Shown: piece by piece, positions 9,893 to 18,592 of the stretch
How the letters are laid out: every line of letters starts with the position of its first letter
How positions within the stretch are numbered: position 1 is the first letter of the stretch
Assembly: GCA_001767925.1 (NCBI GenBank)
Contig: MEMM01000142.1
Span: 10,456-45,969, forward strand
DNA length: 35,514 nucleotides
Direction: 5' to 3'
From: Alphaproteobacteria bacterium RIFCSPHIGHO2_12_FULL_63_12
GTDB lineage: Bacteria; Pseudomonadota; Alphaproteobacteria; Caulobacterales; Parvularculaceae
Made by a program: the position numbers and the translations under genes
The notes under the pieces: generated by a model
Database searches by the model: none
What the model was told of the DNA's origin: nothing
What the model saw: only the letters and a program-made list of their open reading frames with translations

Positions 9893-9921
9893 ATGTCATC
9901 ACCCTGACAAAAAACAATCAC
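9893..9921 (+). promoter_or_regulatory. Second PhoB-box-like repeat array at the lipoprotein promoter
   Basis: Units ATGTCAT (9893), CTGACAA (9904) and CAATCAC (9915) are again spaced by 11 bp. The first is one base from the PhoB half-site CTGTCAT and the others are weaker. A candidate -10, TAATAG (9929-9934), starts 8 bp after the array, as expected when PhoB replaces the -35. Transcription would begin near 9941, about 80 nt before the lipoprotein ATG at 10022. Confidence 0.42.
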
Positions 9922-10021
9922 TCAGATGTAATAGTCGTTGACTACGGGGTTCACCGCTGCAGCGCGTGGGGCGCTGCACAATGCGTGTCATCGCAACCAA
10001 TCAAAGCGGGGACTATTGTTC

Positions 10022-12796
10022 ATGCGCCAGTTGAAATCTCTGAAATTCGCCCTGTTGCTCGCCACTTCCGCGACGATCGCCGCCTGCTCGAATGCGGATG
10101 TCGCGTCGCCGGGCGCGCCCAATCCGATTACGCCGATTGTGCTGCCCCCGGGCGGCGGCGGCGGGTCCGGCGGCCTGGCGCAGAATCTGGTGCCGCCGTC
10201 CGGTTGCTCGGCCGGCACGACGCAAGTGACGCGTTCGAATTTTCCGGGATCCTCGACGACCTTCGCCGTCTGCTTGCTGAACAATAGCGCGATCGCCGCC
10301 GGCCCGGTCAGCGTCTCGCAGGCGTCGCAATATCCGATCCTGATTGAAAATACGGCATTCGTCGGCGCAGACGGCGGCGCCGCGGGCAATCTCACCATCG
10401 GCGCGGGCACGGTTTTGTTCGGCAATGACGCCGACGGCGTCGACATTCTCGTCGTAACCCGCGGATCGCAGATCAACGCGAACGGAACAGCGTCGTCGCC
10501 GATCGTCATGACCTCGGCCCAGGACCTTCTGGACGATGGACGCTCCAATGGCAGCGCCGGCAGCGGCCAGTGGGGCGGCGTTGTCATCAATGGCCGCGCG
10601 CCGATCAATGACTGCACGGTCAATCCCGCCGCCATTCCGGGGTCAGCGAATTGCGAGAAGGACGGCGAAGGCGGTTCGGGCCTCTTCGGCGGCGACCAAC
10701 CGAACGACAATTCCGGCGTCCTGCGCTATGTGCGCATCCAGCACGCGGGCTTCCAGTTTTCGGCGACCAACGAGCTGAATGGTCTGGCGCTTCAGGGCGT
10801 CGGCGACGGCACGACGATCGACTTCCTTCAGGTTCACAACAACGCCGATGACGGCGTCGAGTTTTTCGGCGGCACGGTCCGCGTTCGCCACCTCGTTCTC
10901 ACCGGCAATGACGACGACGCTTTCGACTGGACCGACGGATGGTCCGGCGACGCGCAATTCGTGCTCGTCGCTCAAACGCAAGGGCGCGGCGACAACGGCA
11001 TCGAGGGCGACAATCGCGGTTCCGATCCGCTGCTGACCCCGCGCTCCAATCCGCAGATTTCGAACATGACGCTCATCGGCCGCAGCAACGGCTCGGGCAA
11101 TGAAGGCGTGCAGGTGCGCGCCGGCACGAATGGCAGGCTCGTCAACTTTGTCGTCGCGGGCTTCGGCTCCGGCGTCGAATATGACGAGACGGCCGGCCTT
11201 TCCGATCCGGTGCTGCAATCCTTCGCGGTTGGCGGCAATGCGTCGACCGGCGACGCGGAAGGCGTTGCGCTCCTCAATGGCGATGCGACCAACCTGATCT
11301 TCGCCGCCAATACGCTGAACGGCGTCATTCCGGGCGTCAACGAGAATTCAGTGACGCCGACCGATCCGGCGACGCTCGGCTCGTTCTTCACGGCGGCGAA
11401 TTACGCCGGCGCCTTCGCGCCGACGGAAACCAATAGCGCGAACTGGACCAGCGGCTGGGCTATCGCCGTCCCGGGCGCGAGAGCCGCCGGGTGCCCGGCG
11501 GGAACAACGGCGACCAACGAAGCGGTTCCGGCCGGCCGGTCGGAATCAGCTGTTTGCCGCCTCAACCGTCCGGTGACGAGCAATGTGACGCTCACCAGCG
11601 GCAATCTCTACGAAATTGAAGGGTCGACCTTTGTCGGGGTCGATCTCGGGCCCGACCCCGCCGCCCCGCTCGCCAACGGCGTCGCGGCGTCTCTGACGAT
11701 CGAACCCGGCGTGACGCTTTTCGCCGAAGGCGGCGCCACCAGCAATCCGCTTCCGGGCGCCGGCGATACCGGACCGGATGATCTGCTGGTTGTTTCACGC
11801 GGGTCCCAGCTCATCGTCAACGGCTCGGCCGTGGCGCCGGTCGTGATGACCAGCCGCGAGGAAGTGTTCAACGGCGCCGGCGCTGCGACCAACTGGGGCG
11901 GCCTCGTCATCAACGGCCGCGCGCCGATCAACGACTGCACGGTTAATCCGGCGGCGATCCCCGGATCGGTCGGGTGCGAGAAGGACGGCGAGGGCGCATC
12001 GGGTCGGTTCGGCGGCGCAACGGCGTCGGACGACTCAGGCAGCATCAGATATCTGCGCGTCGAATTCTCCGGCAAGCAGTTTTCAGCGACCAATGAGCTG
12101 AACGGCATTGCGATGCAGGGCGTCGGCAACGGCACCGACATCGACTTCGTGCAAATCTATCAGACCGCGGACGACGGCATTGAATGGTTCGGCGGCACGG
12201 CCGACGCCAAGCACGTCATCGTCACCGGACAAGATGATGACGGCCTCGACTGGACGGACGGCTGGGTCGGTCGCCTGCAATATGCGATCGTCAACAAGCT
12301 CGCTGGCGGCGATAACGGCGTCGAAGGCGACAACCGCGGATCGAACCCGCTGCTGACGCCGCGCTCCACGCCGCTCTGGTCGAACATCACACTTGTCGGC
12401 AACGGCATCGGCGAAGGGCTCCAGGTTCGCGCCGGCACAGACGGCGAGTTCGCCAACATCATCGTCACCGGCTTCGCCGAGGGCATCGATTACACGCTGA
12501 CCCCCGGCCTTTCCGATCCGAGCGTTGATTCCTTCGCGCTGACCGCCAACACGGCGCAGCTGACCAATGACGCGCCGGCGATCTTCGGCGCGGGCGCCAA
12601 CAACATCCAGAACGCGGCCTCCACATTGACCGCGCGCGCCGGCGCCTCCGTTGCGCTGGTTCCGGGCGCCAATGAAGCAACGACGGCGATCGATCCGACG
12701 ACGCTCGATGCGACCTTCTTCGACGCGGCGACCTATGTCGGTGCGGTCAACGGCGCCGGCGACGATTGGTATCTCGGCTGGACGCGCGGCCTTTAA
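10022..12796 (+). CDS. Surface lipoprotein with two tandem beta-helix repeats, partner of the TonB receptor
   Basis: A lipoprotein of about 924 aa. Residues 1-22 form a lipoprotein signal with lipobox I-A-A-C22. A glycine/proline linker follows, then two homologous halves, about 62-480 and 491-924. Both start with C-x-A-G-T-T and both contain 'WGG(V/L)VINGRAPINDC', 'FSATNELNG', 'DWTDGW' and 'EGDNRGS(D/N)PLLTPRS'. Short Asp/Asn/Gly-rich repeated strands indicate a parallel beta-helix with acidic, perhaps calcium-binding, loops. Each half has four matching cysteines, suggesting two disulfides. It sits directly before a TonB-dependent receptor, so a role in ligand capture at the outer membrane is inferred by analogy with SusD-like partners; homology to SusD is not claimed. 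The start 10022 is chosen because it gives the lipoprotein signal. Confidence 0.8.
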   Translation: MRQLKSLKFALLLATSATIAACSNADVASPGAPNPITPIVLPPGGGGGSGGLAQNLVPPSGCSAGTTQVTRSNFPGSSTTFAVCLLNNSAIAAGPVSVSQASQYPILIENTAFVGADGGAAGNLTIGAGTVLFGNDADGVDILVVTRGSQINANGTASSPIVMTSAQDLLDDGRSNGSAGSGQWGGVVINGRAPINDCTVNPAAIPGSANCEKDGEGGSGLFGGDQPNDNSGVLRYVRIQHAGFQFSATNELNGLALQGVGDGTTIDFLQVHNNADDGVEFFGGTVRVRHLVLTGNDDDAFDWTDGWSGDAQFVLVAQTQGRGDNGIEGDNRGSDPLLTPRSNPQISNMTLIGRSNGSGNEGVQVRAGTNGRLVNFVVAGFGSGVEYDETAGLSDPVLQSFAVGGNASTGDAEGVALLNGDATNLIFAANTLNGVIPGVNENSVTPTDPATLGSFFTAANYAGAFAPTETNSANWTSGWAIAVPGARAAGCPAGTTATNEAVPAGRSESAVCRLNRPVTSNVTLTSGNLYEIEGSTFVGVDLGPDPAAPLANGVAASLTIEPGVTLFAEGGATSNPLPGAGDTGPDDLLVVSRGSQLIVNGSAVAPVVMTSREEVFNGAGAATNWGGLVINGRAPINDCTVNPAAIPGSVGCEKDGEGASGRFGGATASDDSGSIRYLRVEFSGKQFSATNELNGIAMQGVGNGTDIDFVQIYQTADDGIEWFGGTADAKHVIVTGQDDDGLDWTDGWVGRLQYAIVNKLAGGDNGVEGDNRGSNPLLTPRSTPLWSNITLVGNGIGEGLQVRAGTDGEFANIIVTGFAEGIDYTLTPGLSDPSVDSFALTANTAQLTNDAPAIFGAGANNIQNAASTLTARAGASVALVPGANEATTAIDPTTLDATFFDAATYVGAVNGAGDDWYLGWTRGL

Positions 12797-12807
12797 TCCA
12801 ATGAACC

Positions 12808-12833
12808 CGGGCGGCGGCCTGCGCCGCCGCCCG
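12808..12833 (+). terminator. GC-rich hairpin between lipoprotein and receptor genes
   Basis: A perfect 11-bp inverted repeat (12808-12818 with 12823-12833) with a four-base loop lies 12 bp after the lipoprotein stop. Only a short T run (TTT, 12837-12839) follows. It is likely an attenuator or an mRNA-stabilising 3' hairpin rather than a full terminator, which would set lipoprotein output above receptor output. Confidence 0.5.
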
Positions 12834-12892
12834 TCATTTGCCGAAACACAGTTCAAATGCCGGCGGAACGCCGCGCACAGGTGGGGCCTAAA

Positions 12893-15544
12893 ATGAGAGT
12901 TCAGAAAAAATTGACCGCGATGCTGCTGGGAACATCATCGCTCGCGCTTTGCAGCGCGGCGTCCGCCCAGGAGATAGATATACCCGCGCCGACCGACGAG
13001 ATCGTCGTCAGGGGCGTCAACATTCCAGATGAAAAGCGCGCGACGTCGGAAATCTCGGCGTTACTTGATGAAACGTCCTTCGACCGGACAGGCGACAGCG
13101 ACATCGCTGAGGCGCTGCGGCGGGTCACCGGCATCTCGCTCAGCCAGGGCCGATTCGTCATCGTTCGCGGCCTCAATGAACGCTACTCCAGCGTCACCAT
13201 CAACGGCTCCCCGTTGCCGAGCCCCGAGCCGCTGCGCCGGGTCGTGCCGCTCGACATCGTGCCGACCTCGATTCTCGCCGGCTCTCTGGTGCAGAAAACC
13301 TTCTCTCCGCAATATTCCGGCGAATTCGGCGGCGGCCTTGTGGAGCTGCGCACCAAGGGAATTCCCGACGAACCGTTCTTCGAAATCGGCGGAAACATCG
13401 GTCTTGATCTGTCGACCAGCGGCCGCGACGGGCTTATCCATGACGGCGGCAAGCGCGACTGGCTCGGCTTCGATGATGGCACGCGCAATACGCCGTCGCT
13501 GATGTTTGGAAACGGGACCATTCCGCCCGCCATTCAAGATCAGGTGGATGTAAGCATCGAAAGCGACAAGACGCTGCTCGCGCTCGAGAACACCATTCCG
13601 CCGAATTGGGGCGTCGACACGGCGTTCGGTACGCGGTTTGACCTCTCGAATGATATCAGCTTCGGAGCGACGGTCGCCCTCGGCTATTCAAACGAATGGC
13701 AGACACGCGAAGGTCGTCGCGAACAGGGCTTCCGTCAATCGGCGACGATTTTCGACGTCGACGCGTCGCAGGCTTACGATTTCCTTTCGACGACCAACAC
13801 GATCGAGGCCAACGGCTTTGCGACGTTTGGGCTTCAATTCGGCGACAATCACGAAATCACCTCCACCAATTTCATGTTGCGCTCGACCTCCAAGGACACG
13901 CGCCAGTCGATCGGCCTCGACGGCAATGATCCGACGGGTGCGGAATTCCTGCGCACCAATCTTGAATTTTTTGAGAGGCAAGTCTGGCAATCGCAGCTCG
14001 CCGGAGACCACGTTTTTCCCGGCCTGAACGACCTTTCGGTGAAGTGGCGCGGCGCCTATGGCGAAGCGTTCCGCGACGCCCCCTATCAGCGCGAATACAC
14101 CTATATTCGCGATCTTAACGTCGCCGATTCGCCGTTCCTTTATGACGCCAACGGCCAAGTCGGATCGACGCCGCACACGCTCAGCTTTTCGAAGGTCGAG
14201 GATACGAATGTCGATGCGGGAATCGACTTCGTTCTGCCGGTGACCCTTGCCGGAACGGAAATCGATCTCAAAACCGGCTACGCCTATACGGATAAGGACC
14301 GCGACACGCTGGCGCGAAATTACGAATATGTCTCACAGGTTCCGGTGCCGCAAATCATTCTCGGCAGCCGCGCGGACCAGCTTTTCGCGCCCTCGGTCAC
14401 GGGAACGGCGATCTTCGATCTGACTTTCGTCGGCGCGGCGATCGATCTCGACAATTCGGTCTCGACCCTGAAGGTGCACGGCGCTTACGCCGGCGCCGAC
14501 ATTCAGCTTGGCTCCTATGTGCGTCTCGCGCTCGGCGGCCGGTATGAAGACGGCGAACAGGTGACAAGCGCCTTTTCGACCCTGACGCCGGCCAATGTGA
14601 CGCAAACGATCATCGCCGAGGACTATCTTCTGCCGGCCGCCACGATCACCTGGAATCCGGTGAACGATGTTCAGGTGCGCGGCGGCTTCTCGAAGACGAT
14701 CACCCGTCCTCAATTTCGCGAGCTTACGCCTGCGATCTTCATCGATGACGCGACCGACCTCGCCTATCGCGGTAATCCGTTCCTCCGGAACACTGAGATC
14801 GACAATTACGACGCGCGCGCCGAATATTATTTCGGCCGCGGCCGGTTCGTGACGCTCGGCGGGTTTTACAAAACGCTCGACGGGCCGATCGAAGAAGCGA
14901 TCGATCGCGATCTCGGCGGCTTCGAGTTCGTCTCGTTCATCAATGCGCCGTCGGCGAAAATCTACGGCTTCGAGTTCGAATTCGAGAACACCTGGCCGGT
15001 GTCGGATCTCGTCGACTGGAAATTCATGTCGACCAAGGACCTTGTCTTCAAGACCAACTACACTTGGTCGAAATCGAAGGTCAGCAATCAGGGCGATGTT
15101 TCGACTTCCGCGCTTAATCCCCTGACGCGGACGGTTGACGAACAAATTCTGCCCGGCTCCTCCGTGTTCGAGGATGGGCGTGCGTTGCAGGGTCAGTCGC
15201 GGCATCTGTTCAACCTGCAAATCGGCGTTGAAGATGTCGAAGCGGAATCGAAAGCGACGATCCTCGTCAACTGGGCGTCGAGCCGGATCCGCCAGGTCGA
15301 GCTTATCCTCGGCGCTAATGACATGGTCCCGCGGGTCATCGAACAGCCGCCGATCACGCTCGATTTCGTGTGGTCGCGGCGATTTGAGCGCCTCGGCGGC
15401 ATGTGGCAGATCGGCCTCGAAGTGCGCAATATTCTCGGCGACGACTACGAAGCGACGCAGACATTTTCCGACGGATCGGTCTCCCAATATGACGTGTACG
15501 ATCTCGGGCGGAAAATTTCAGCGAGCCTGAAGCGGGAATTCTAG
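12893..15544 (+). CDS. TonB-dependent outer-membrane receptor
   Basis: About 883 aa. Residues 1-26 are a Sec signal ending in A-S-A. A TonB-box-like 'DEIVVRG' follows near residues 36-42. The plug domain ('SDIAEALRRVTGIS', 'FVIVRGLNERYSSVTING', 'YSGEFGGGLVELRTKG') runs to about residue 190. The rest is a beta-barrel of alternating aromatic strands ending in a terminal Phe, the usual signal for outer-membrane insertion. It would import a ligand using ExbB/ExbD/TonB energy; the ligand is unknown. The start at 12893 has AGGTGGGG upstream and gives the signal peptide. It lies about 96 bp after the lipoprotein gene on the same strand and is followed by a strong terminator. Confidence 0.93.
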   Translation: MRVQKKLTAMLLGTSSLALCSAASAQEIDIPAPTDEIVVRGVNIPDEKRATSEISALLDETSFDRTGDSDIAEALRRVTGISLSQGRFVIVRGLNERYSSVTINGSPLPSPEPLRRVVPLDIVPTSILAGSLVQKTFSPQYSGEFGGGLVELRTKGIPDEPFFEIGGNIGLDLSTSGRDGLIHDGGKRDWLGFDDGTRNTPSLMFGNGTIPPAIQDQVDVSIESDKTLLALENTIPPNWGVDTAFGTRFDLSNDISFGATVALGYSNEWQTREGRREQGFRQSATIFDVDASQAYDFLSTTNTIEANGFATFGLQFGDNHEITSTNFMLRSTSKDTRQSIGLDGNDPTGAEFLRTNLEFFERQVWQSQLAGDHVFPGLNDLSVKWRGAYGEAFRDAPYQREYTYIRDLNVADSPFLYDANGQVGSTPHTLSFSKVEDTNVDAGIDFVLPVTLAGTEIDLKTGYAYTDKDRDTLARNYEYVSQVPVPQIILGSRADQLFAPSVTGTAIFDLTFVGAAIDLDNSVSTLKVHGAYAGADIQLGSYVRLALGGRYEDGEQVTSAFSTLTPANVTQTIIAEDYLLPAATITWNPVNDVQVRGGFSKTITRPQFRELTPAIFIDDATDLAYRGNPFLRNTEIDNYDARAEYYFGRGRFVTLGGFYKTLDGPIEEAIDRDLGGFEFVSFINAPSAKIYGFEFEFENTWPVSDLVDWKFMSTKDLVFKTNYTWSKSKVSNQGDVSTSALNPLTRTVDEQILPGSSVFEDGRALQGQSRHLFNLQIGVEDVEAESKATILVNWASSRIRQVELILGANDMVPRVIEQPPITLDFVWSRRFERLGGMWQIGLEVRNILGDDYEATQTFSDGSVSQYDVYDLGRKISASLKREF

Positions 15545-16367: not shown

Positions 16368-16880
16368 TTAGTCCTGAACGGGGTCCCTATCCTGCGTGCG
16401 TTGCGGATTTTGTCCACCCAAAATCGTCGCCATCATCCGGCGCAGCCGGTGGGGGGCGGTCGCCTCGACGCCGGCCCACACGAATGGATAGATCGCTATC
16501 GACTCGCCGGTTGCGGCGGCGACAAACCGCTCCAGCGCCGGAACTCGCTCGGTCGGCGCCTCAAGATCGACCGCTAGGGCGAGCGGGACGCTCGCGATGG
16601 TCCTCGCTTTCACGGGACCGAACCCTCGAACCTCAATGAGGCCGGCGATGGCCGGCGGCGCGCGCGCCAGGAGCCGCCCGCCGATCGCCTCGACAAGGAC
16701 CACGTCATCGGCGACAAGCGCCGTCCGCTGGTGGGGGCAGGTCTCGATCAGCGATAAAGCAAGGGCGGATTTTCCCGAGCCAGACCCGCCAAGAATAAGA
16801 ACGCCCGCCAGCGGCCCATCGGCGTCGACCGCGATCGCCACGGCGGTTGCATGCAACGTTTCGGTCATCCGGCCGGTCAC
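16368..16880 (-). CDS. hprK: HPr kinase/phosphorylase, short alphaproteobacterial form
   Basis: A 170-aa protein that contains only the C-terminal catalytic domain of HprK, the short form usual in alphaproteobacteria. The P-loop GGSGSGKS lies at 31-38, 'LVADDVV' at 57-63 and the HprK signature 'IEVRGFG' at 84-90. It phosphorylates and dephosphorylates HPr on serine. GTG at 16880 overlaps the chvG stop as GTGA; an internal ATG at 16868 is an alternative start. Its place between chvG and EIIA couples PTS control to the two-component system. Confidence 0.92.
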   Translation of the reverse strand: MTGRMTETLHATAVAIAVDADGPLAGVLILGGSGSGKSALALSLIETCPHQRTALVADDVVLVEAIGGRLLARAPPAIAGLIEVRGFGPVKARTIASVPLALAVDLEAPTERVPALERFVAAATGESIAIYPFVWAGVEATAPHRLRRMMATILGGQNPQRTQDRDPVQD

Positions 16881-18592
16881 GCGGTTGGAAGTTCGACGAC
16901 AAAGCGTGCGCCCGCGACGCCGTTGCCTCCGCCGGGGCGATTTTCAGCCCAGATGACGCCGCCATGGCTGACGACGATCTGGCGCGAAATAGCGAGGCCG
17001 AGTCCCGAATTATTGCCGAAGGCGGACCCTTGCGGGCGTTTCGTGTAGAACCGCGAAAATATTTTCTCTAGCGCATCGGGCGGAATGCCCGGCCCATCGT
17101 CGTCGACAATGATCTGGACGCTTCGGTGCCGGTCGGTCGGCGGCGAGACATAAAGGCGAACTTCGCCGTTCGGCGGCGAGAAGGAGCGCGCATTATCGAT
17201 CAGGTTACGGAATACCTGCCCTAGCGCGGCGGCGTTGCCGAAGAGGTAGATCGGAGAGCCAGAAGGATCAAAGGTGACGCGCGCCTCATTTTCCTTGCCG
17301 GTCATGCGGTAAATATCCGCGATATCGACCAGCAGCTTGCGGACATCGACCGCGTCGCGCGCTTCGCGGGCGAGTTCGGCGTCAAGGCGCGACGCATTCG
17401 AGATGTCGGTGATCAGCCGGTCCATGCGCGCGACGTCTTTTTTGATGACGCCCATCAATTTGTCGCGCGCTTCCGGCTTGGTCGCGATTTCAAGCGTTTC
17501 CGCCGCGCTGCGGATCGAGGTCAGCGGATTTTTAAGTTCATGCGACACGTCCGCGGCGAAACTTTCAATTGCTTCGATCCGCGCATAAATCGCCTGGGTC
17601 ATCGATCGCAGCGACGCCGACAGCTCGCCGATTTCGTCCTTGCGGTGCGAGAAATCCGGTATACGCGCGCGCCCGGCGGCGGCGATGCCTTCGCGGACCT
17701 TGTCGGCGGCGAACGCCAGCTGGCGGATCGGCTGGGCGATCGCGGTTGTCAGGAGCAATGAGGACAAGATCGCCGCGGCGCAGGCAAGGCCGAAAAACGG
17801 AAGGATCGCAAGGCGCGCTTCGGAAACAAGATCCTCGATCCCGCCGATTTCAGCCGTCACGACGCCGTAAATCGCCTGCACGCGGCGGATAGGCACAGAG
17901 ACCGACGCGACAAGCTCCTCATCCTCGTTGAACCGCACGGAGGTGGCGCCGCGCTCGGCCGCGAAAGGCGACGATGCGAGCGCTTCGTTCAGCTCGTCCT
18001 CAATCGTGCGCTGCGCCGCGTCGCGCCGGTAGCCGCCGGTCATGAACCGTTTCAGGAAATTTTCTGCGGTGCGGCCGATGCGCCAAAAAATATTGTCCGC
18101 GCTCGCATCATCGACCGGCGCGAGTTGCTCGACGACGATCTGGTCTTCGCGGAGCATGACGTCATCGATCAGCAGCGCGTTCGCGTCGCTGACGACCGCG
18201 TCGTCGGTCGATTGCGGCGCATTGAAAATCCTGACCCGGCCTTCGAAGCTGTCCCAAACGCGATTGAAGACCAGGTTCACGTCCGCTTCCGACAGGGTCG
18301 GGCGGCAAATGACGGACTCGTCGTTGTCTGAATTGGCCGGCGCGCAATCGGAGCCGCTGACCGCCGCTTGCGCAAGCACATCCGCGAACAGCTGCGCTTG
18401 CGCCCGGACGCCTTCAAGTTTCGCCTGGATCAGTCCGTCGCGGTACTGGGTGACGCCCAGCGAGCCGACAAGGAGGATGACGAGACCGATCAGATTGGCG
18501 AGCACGATCGTTAGCGTCAGCCGTGAAATGGCGACGCCGGCGCCCGCAGGTCGCGAGCGCTTGCGCGGACGCTTGGCCGCCACCTCTCGCAT
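16877..18592 (-). CDS. chvG: Sensor histidine kinase ChvG
   Basis: A 571-aa inner-membrane histidine kinase. TM1 is about 23-47 and TM2 about 262-285, enclosing a periplasmic sensor domain of some 210 residues. HAMP follows, then the H-box 'SHELKNPLTS' with H351, an N-box 'NLIDNARSFS' and the G1 box 'DDGPGIPP'. ChvG/ExoS proteins sense acidity or envelope stress and control envelope, motility and metabolic genes; the periplasmic inhibitor ExoR is not in the window. It begins 8 bp after the chvI stop and overlaps hprK by 4 bp. Confidence 0.92.
   Translation of the reverse strand: MREVAAKRPRKRSRPAGAGVAISRLTLTIVLANLIGLVILLVGSLGVTQYRDGLIQAKLEGVRAQAQLFADVLAQAAVSGSDCAPANSDNDESVICRPTLSEADVNLVFNRVWDSFEGRVRIFNAPQSTDDAVVSDANALLIDDVMLREDQIVVEQLAPVDDASADNIFWRIGRTAENFLKRFMTGGYRRDAAQRTIEDELNEALASSPFAAERGATSVRFNEDEELVASVSVPIRRVQAIYGVVTAEIGGIEDLVSEARLAILPFFGLACAAAILSSLLLTTAIAQPIRQLAFAADKVREGIAAAGRARIPDFSHRKDEIGELSASLRSMTQAIYARIEAIESFAADVSHELKNPLTSIRSAAETLEIATKPEARDKLMGVIKKDVARMDRLITDISNASRLDAELAREARDAVDVRKLLVDIADIYRMTGKENEARVTFDPSGSPIYLFGNAAALGQVFRNLIDNARSFSPPNGEVRLYVSPPTDRHRSVQIIVDDDGPGIPPDALEKIFSRFYTKRPQGSAFGNNSGLGLAISRQIVVSHGGVIWAENRPGGGNGVAGARFVVELPTA

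Follow-up and report, generated by a model that had tools for sequence, protein, structure and literature searches.

The stretch of DNA analysed here (the window, 35,514 nucleotides) carries on its forward strand an open reading frame of 924 amino acids, running from an ATG at 10022 to a stop codon at 12796, and 60 bp after it a gene for a TonB-dependent receptor of 895 amino acids (12857-15544, forward strand), in which the plug and barrel domains both exceed the Pfam cut-off. The first product begins with MRQLKSLKFALLLATSATIAAC, which on inspection resembles a lipoprotein signal peptide (10022-10087) with the lipobox IAAC and Cys22 as the lipidated residue. Two tandem beta-helix domains, delimited by profile matches and structure models, follow at 10202-11470 and 11489-12793. 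The sequence-only reading had proposed a lipoprotein of two homologous halves placed directly before a receptor, and both the duplication and the gene order were borne out. Residues 61-479 and 490-920 share 217 identities over 399 positions (54%), with an alignment score of 1005 against a mean of 57 and a maximum of 83 in shuffled sequences (n=200); Cys 62/84/198/211 stand in register with Cys 491/512/639/652, and the motifs WGG, DWTDGW and EGDNRGS occur once in each half. These four cysteines are typical of the alphaproteobacterial rows of the domain alignment (12 or 13 of 13), and are present in 34, 16, 15 and 16 of all 62 rows.

Upstream of the lipoprotein gene two further features were noted on the forward strand. 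At 9893-9910, 129 bp 5' of the ATG, lies a Pho-box-like site, ATGTCATCACCCTGACAA, matching 11 of the 14 specified positions of CTGTCATNNNNCTGTCAT, which we took to be the Pho-box consensus for scoring. Closer to the gene is an inverted repeat (GCAGCGC-GTGGG-GCGCTGC, 9959-9977) with a single match in the window. When the upstream regions of the window's close loci were compared, its core, GCGCGTGGGGCG, was also found just 5' of the lipoprotein ATG in loci L002, L003, L004, L006 and L143, and was absent upstream of the lipoprotein in L005; it is perhaps a regulator site or a leader element. Downstream of the pair, at 16877-18592 on the reverse strand, a sensor histidine kinase with a Sensor_TM1 domain is encoded, which we take to be ChvG-like and which has no obvious relation to the pair.

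Database searches with the lipoprotein found no Pfam, NCBIfam or related PDB entry. An Fe-S Pfam match (E 0.021, below its cut-off), weak Pfam matches of one family member each and matches to dihydrofolate reductase (E 0.94-0.95) were all taken as chance. The lipoprotein gene of locus L104 shares 35% identity with window residues 11-508 (E 1e-55), in an alignment that runs beyond the stop codon. At L104 a one-domain lipoprotein of 518 amino acids, in which LAGC occupies residues 17-20, is followed by a receptor and next by gspD, and the N-terminus encoded at L106 is the same. In Caulobacter, the phosphate-starvation lipoprotein ElpS (cc0170) was described in 2010 as encoded just before the receptor gene cc0171 and type II secretion system (T2SS) genes, with the lipobox LAGC at residues 17-20 (PMC2996285). 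Since gene order and lipobox are as published, L104 is presumably elpS itself, and by homology to this likely counterpart, on sequence grounds, the window protein is a member of the ElpS (Cc0170) family, with which it also has in common a lipobox (IAAC, Cys22) and an adjacent TonB-dependent receptor.

The suggestion made from the window alone, that this might be an undescribed capture system, thus has to be given up, as it is ruled out by ElpS and its Flavobacterium relatives as presented in two reports (PMC2996285, PMC8115612). According to the former, ElpS is induced by phosphate starvation, palmitoylated and exposed on the surface, as shown by proteinase K, and the co-occurrence of cc0170 and cc0171 homologues was read there as "probably" showing functional interaction. 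In the latter, three phosphate-induced lipoproteins of Flavobacterium, FI, FII and FIII, were described in 2020 as related to the Caulobacter protein, and a described relative ranks first in abundance among the exoproteins of Flavobacterium johnsoniae starved of phosphate. Fjoh_3856 and Fjoh_0546 are named in PMC7807042, and an ElpS homologue is mentioned in Xanthomonas (PMC8508651). The new findings are how strongly the two genes are coupled, that one receptor type recurs across phyla, the Pho-box statistics and a confidently predicted fold.

ElpS, of about 50 kDa (PMC2996285), has one domain in its likely counterpart L104, whereas the window protein has two. One domain was counted in L104-L112 and two in L113-L143; across the 53 loci from different phyla, two domains within one protein were present in seven (L002-L006, L033, L036), with some other proteins of this count cut by contig ends, and the plasmid proteins of Alteromonas and Pseudoalteromonas (L056 and L057) have three. 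From these counts the two-domain duplication is the usual form among the window's relatives, and the window pair is a genuine member of a known family, in the form typical of its lineage. A class-wide search found the family in three of 142 genomes, the window's own among them, so that with this query it is seen mainly in the window's order, and its wide distribution rests on the cross-phyla searches.

The coupling of lipoprotein and receptor was assessed in several samples. Among 299 genomes of the window's order (thresholds E 1e-3 for the lipoprotein and 1e-20 for the receptor), the lipoprotein was found in 201; both genes were present in 197, the lipoprotein only in four (G178, G240, G424, G426), the receptor only in one (G373) and neither in 97, counts from genomes that share kinship, so that Fisher values do not stem from independent events. 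All five single-partner matches touch contig ends: in G178, G240, G426 and G373 the match extends to the contig boundary toward which the partner would be expected, and in G424 a remote relative sits where the start of a long frame is cut off, the receptor not being nearby. Lipoproteins independent of the receptor, which would have spoken against the proposed partnership, were accordingly not found in the window's order (197 with both against five single, all at contig ends). The 53 cross-phyla loci include, as judged by record titles, Alpha- and Gammaproteobacteria, Bacteroidota, Verrucomicrobia, Myxococcota and Planctomycetota; 47 of them have a related receptor as same-strand neighbour, in either gene order and with gaps of -1530 to 439 bp as taken between stop-to-stop frames. 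In L035 the related receptor lies 1.1 kb off on the opposite strand. Five loci are without a receptor: L020 has a receptor fragment at the contig edge, and in L008, L031 and L037 the contig ends either inside the lipoprotein or less than 1.5 kb from it. The fifth, L049, holds a family member without a receptor in about 7.5 kb on either side and is a real exception to the pairing. In the order/class sample, with regions hand-picked at about one per genus, the receptor adjoins the lipoprotein in 39 of 40 loci, the exception, L140, being cut by a contig end. Five of the six plasmid loci examined, out of 21 records, likewise have the receptor beside the lipoprotein; for the one-domain family member on the Marinobacter salarius plasmid (L060) no receptor was found in 12.8 kb, which makes L049 and L060 the exceptions outside the window's order. 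Short annotated pieces lie just upstream of the L060 lipoprotein.

The window receptor scored at least 89 bits with each of 57 partner receptors, which had been recruited by similarity to it, such a receptor standing beside nearly every lipoprotein; those of L021, overlapping its lipoprotein frame, and L035, both counted as non-partners, score 202 and 234 bits. Within the window's genome 20 barrel matches were detected including the window receptor, and the other 19 loci reach at most 8.7 bits against it, none of them attaining E 0.001. This Cc0171-like receptor therefore resembles its counterparts beside the lipoprotein in other phyla but not its own paralogues. Pairwise distances of lipoproteins and receptors over 29 loci are correlated (r=0.89), and taking out GspD distances leaves a correlation of 0.79 (0 of 2000 permutations). 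Adjacency across loci together with co-occurrence in the 299 genomes rules out a chance pairing.

For the fold, one half of the lipoprotein was modelled with AlphaFold2 from 62 aligned domains; of the 61 domains from outside the window, 60 were aligned, L046 being left out as a near copy of L044. The model (residues 50-489) is a right-handed parallel beta-helix, as in pectin-lyase-like enzymes, with a mean pLDDT of 92.1 and a pTM of 0.92. The full-length model, from an alignment of 28 hand-picked rows, reached pLDDT 86 and pTM 0.59, the latter value leaving it uncertain how the two domains are arranged. In a structure comparison the single domain matched the alginate epimerase AlgE4 with Z 23.5 and an rmsd of 3.2 over 275 residues, and alginate epimerases, tailspikes, polygalacturonases and pectate lyases are among the 50 matches listed (Z 19.2-23.5). 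With Foldseek the single domain had no match under E 0.001 and the full-length model had four, whose TM to the query is 0.14-0.17. Invariant columns of the alignment consist of Gly, Pro, Phe and carboxylates; Glu251, Asp276, Asp277, Glu280, Asp298, Asp302 and Glu328 are kept in 62 of 62 rows. These carboxylate groups lie about 22-26 residues apart, apparently near successive strands of the model, as would be expected for successive coils of a beta-helix. The best-conserved polar residues of the 62 rows are mostly acidic, no His, Lys or Arg is conserved in 85% of them, and the single conserved Tyr, Tyr236, occurs in 56.

Phosphate is the element that was missing from the earlier interpretation. 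Pho-box-like sites with at least 11 of 14 matches were located upstream of 16 of 41 lipoprotein genes where shuffles gave an expectation of 0.6 (both strands scanned; L125 and L138 of 43 regions dropped, with no start assigned). For the remaining genes of these loci the count was 18 of 385 (Fisher p=2e-9), or 12 of 191 when only genes whose upstream DNA is largely intergenic were taken (p=4e-7). Restricting the scan to the coding strand and to positions -230 to -60 leaves 13 of the 41 lipoprotein genes with at least 11 matches. No site at 11 of 14 was present in 25 of the 41 upstream regions, which counts against the phosphorus-acquisition module proposed below. The site of L104 stands at -242, its best score between -230 and -60 being 8. 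Of the window's five closest loci L005 scores 11, L002, L003 and L006 score 10 and L004 scores 9, and a block related to the window's site aligns by eye in L003 and L004. Neighbouring genes were also inspected, at loci chosen by hand according to the length of the neighbours. The regulator beside the pair in L022, L039, L047 and L054 has PhoB as its top-scoring model, and for the kinase PhoR ranks first or second, in all cases below the curated cut-offs; the scanned neighbours in L044 and L015 are not phosphate regulators. On the Alteromonas plasmid, phoB, phoR and a gene for a phosphate-binding protein lie upstream of the pair with one gene between, and an oxygenase gene is likewise just upstream. 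The window lipoprotein gene may be controlled by PhoB. In Caulobacter the PhoB regulon is reported to cover the T2SS and a variety of TonB-dependent receptors (PMC11208175).

Secretion genes form a common, though not a defining, part of the neighbourhood in the ElpS (Cc0170) family: gspD was found within 29 of the 40 order/class-sample loci and is absent from 11. T2SS genes follow the pair on a plasmid of Indioceanicola, and on the Pseudoalteromonas plasmid exbB/exbD/tonB lie upstream of it with one gene between. The window pair shares with ElpS-Cc0171 (PMC2996285) a homologous lipoprotein directly 5' of a TonB-dependent receptor, the lipobox and, through its Pho-box-like site, a putative relation to phosphate starvation, and the T2SS neighbourhood of ElpS is common to 29 of 40 relatives sampled. 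In contrast to the elpS gene, which adjoins T2SS genes, the window pair is not linked to those of its genome: no gspD match was obtained on its contig, where the window and two further stretches were searched, and GspC and GspD are encoded on contig C12.

Taken together, the pair represents a genuine unit of surface lipoprotein and transporter, conserved very widely and linked to phosphate starvation. Building on the family membership, gene coupling, correlated divergence, Pho-box enrichment and predicted fold described above, we consider it fairly probable that a two-domain ElpS-family lipoprotein and its dedicated Cc0171-type receptor form a PhoB-controlled module for phosphorus acquisition at the outer membrane. 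Upon exhaustion of phosphate, PhoB would switch on the lipoprotein, which would be lipidated and anchored on the outer face of the outer membrane. The acidic face of its beta-helix would bind a phosphorus-containing substrate, probably a polymer or a phosphorylated glycan and possibly by way of divalent cations; direct binding of phosphate is not favoured, because the best-conserved polar residues are mostly acidic. The lipoprotein may also process the substrate, and in physical contact with the partner receptor would hand it or its fragments over for TonB-driven import, the steps presumably following in this order. The separation of the window pair from the T2SS genes counts against this module, as do results from Caulobacter given in PMC2996285: cc0171 is expressed in rich and poor medium alike, ElpS is still produced when cc0171 is deleted, supernatant phosphatase activity stays the same when elpS is deleted, and intracellular phosphate showed no change on a shift from rich to poor medium. 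The exceptions L049 and L060 count against it as well. If capture and import were confirmed, an outer-membrane route for the uptake of organic phosphorus in many Gram-negative bacteria would be named.

The main rival is an enzyme acting on a phosphorylated polymer, that is, a surface protein cleaving polysaccharides or phosphodiesters with an acidic site on one sheet of the beta-helix and freeing phosphorylated fragments for the receptor, with capture secondary. Lyases of the beta-helix fold usually need basic or Tyr residues, and the near absence of such positions from the conserved set (no His, Lys or Arg in 85% of rows, Tyr236 in 56 of 62) argues against it, although the seven invariant carboxylates recurring every 22-26 residues or so near successive model strands could line such a site. 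The high-ranking folds, among the matches listed alginate epimerases, tailspike depolymerases, polygalacturonases and pectate lyases, favour an enzyme, and FI, FII and FIII were modelled as polygalacturonase-like (PMC8115612), but a common fold shows no function and does not by itself discriminate between the two explanations. ElpS, refolded or immunoprecipitated, was moreover reported to be without phosphatase activity (PMC2996285), and on balance we regard a primarily enzymatic role as rather unlikely.

Considerably less probable is a lipoprotein that serves as co-factor, activating or displaying another secreted phosphatase and being released by proteolysis, while the receptor imports the product independently. 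It would accommodate the observations that overexpression of ElpS raises alkaline phosphatase activity in the supernatant and that its release, though not its arrival at the surface, needs the T2SS and is blocked by protease inhibitors; deletion of elpS, however, did not lower supernatant phosphatase activity in the same work (PMC2996285), and the pairing with one receptor type across phyla would be left unexplained. A plain adhesin or matrix protein, sharing an operon with a phosphate-regulated receptor by happenstance, is very improbable: the adhesin PfbA is among the structure-comparison matches listed, but near-complete co-occurrence and correlated divergence with the receptor would not be expected of an independent adhesin.

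Among known systems the proposed phosphorus-acquisition module has its closest counterparts, besides ElpS-Cc0171, in FI, FII and FIII of Flavobacterium (PUSIII/PUSIV), which the text of PMC8115612 presents as ElpS-related and phosphate-induced. FI and FII adjoin TonB-dependent transporters and FII lies in a phoBR cluster, whereas FIII, unlike the paired window lipoprotein, is called an orphan (PMC8115612). The sequence-only reading had likened the layout to SusC/SusD lipoprotein-assisted uptake with an unrelated fold, and this analogy is supported by the pairing and by the predicted beta-helix. SusD-SusC likewise combines a surface lipoprotein with a TonB-dependent transporter. Membership in SusD was rejected: proteins of that type carry their own Pfam families (PF07980, PF14322), neither of which matches the window lipoprotein, and no SusD match occurs among the families listed for the 62 domains. 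BtuG is a beta-propeller and not a beta-helix. As a surface lipoprotein dedicated to one TonB-dependent transporter it resembles the window protein, yet BtuG-BtuB is a vitamin B12 system with solved complexes (PMC10404256). PusCD, of SusCD type, is also phosphate-induced (PMC8115612). Tentatively, and with less confidence than for the window pair itself, ElpS-Cc0171 may represent a separate structural class of lipoprotein-assisted TonB uptake, in which a beta-helix lid is repeated one, two or three times by lineage, the invariant carboxylates form a ladder that binds a phosphorus polymer bridged by cations, and the receptor has co-diversified across many Gram-negative phyla, which would make it a general counterpart of SusCD for phosphorus.

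Two observations concern more distant members of the family. The remote relative of the beta-helix domain in G424 (L181) lies at the cut end of an open frame of 1650 amino acids with no receptor nearby, and is perhaps another use of this domain. Relatives of the lipoprotein are also held by three phage-labelled records (MT837092, LR745206 and MT838075), of which the short ones from faeces are possibly bacterial contigs with a wrong label.
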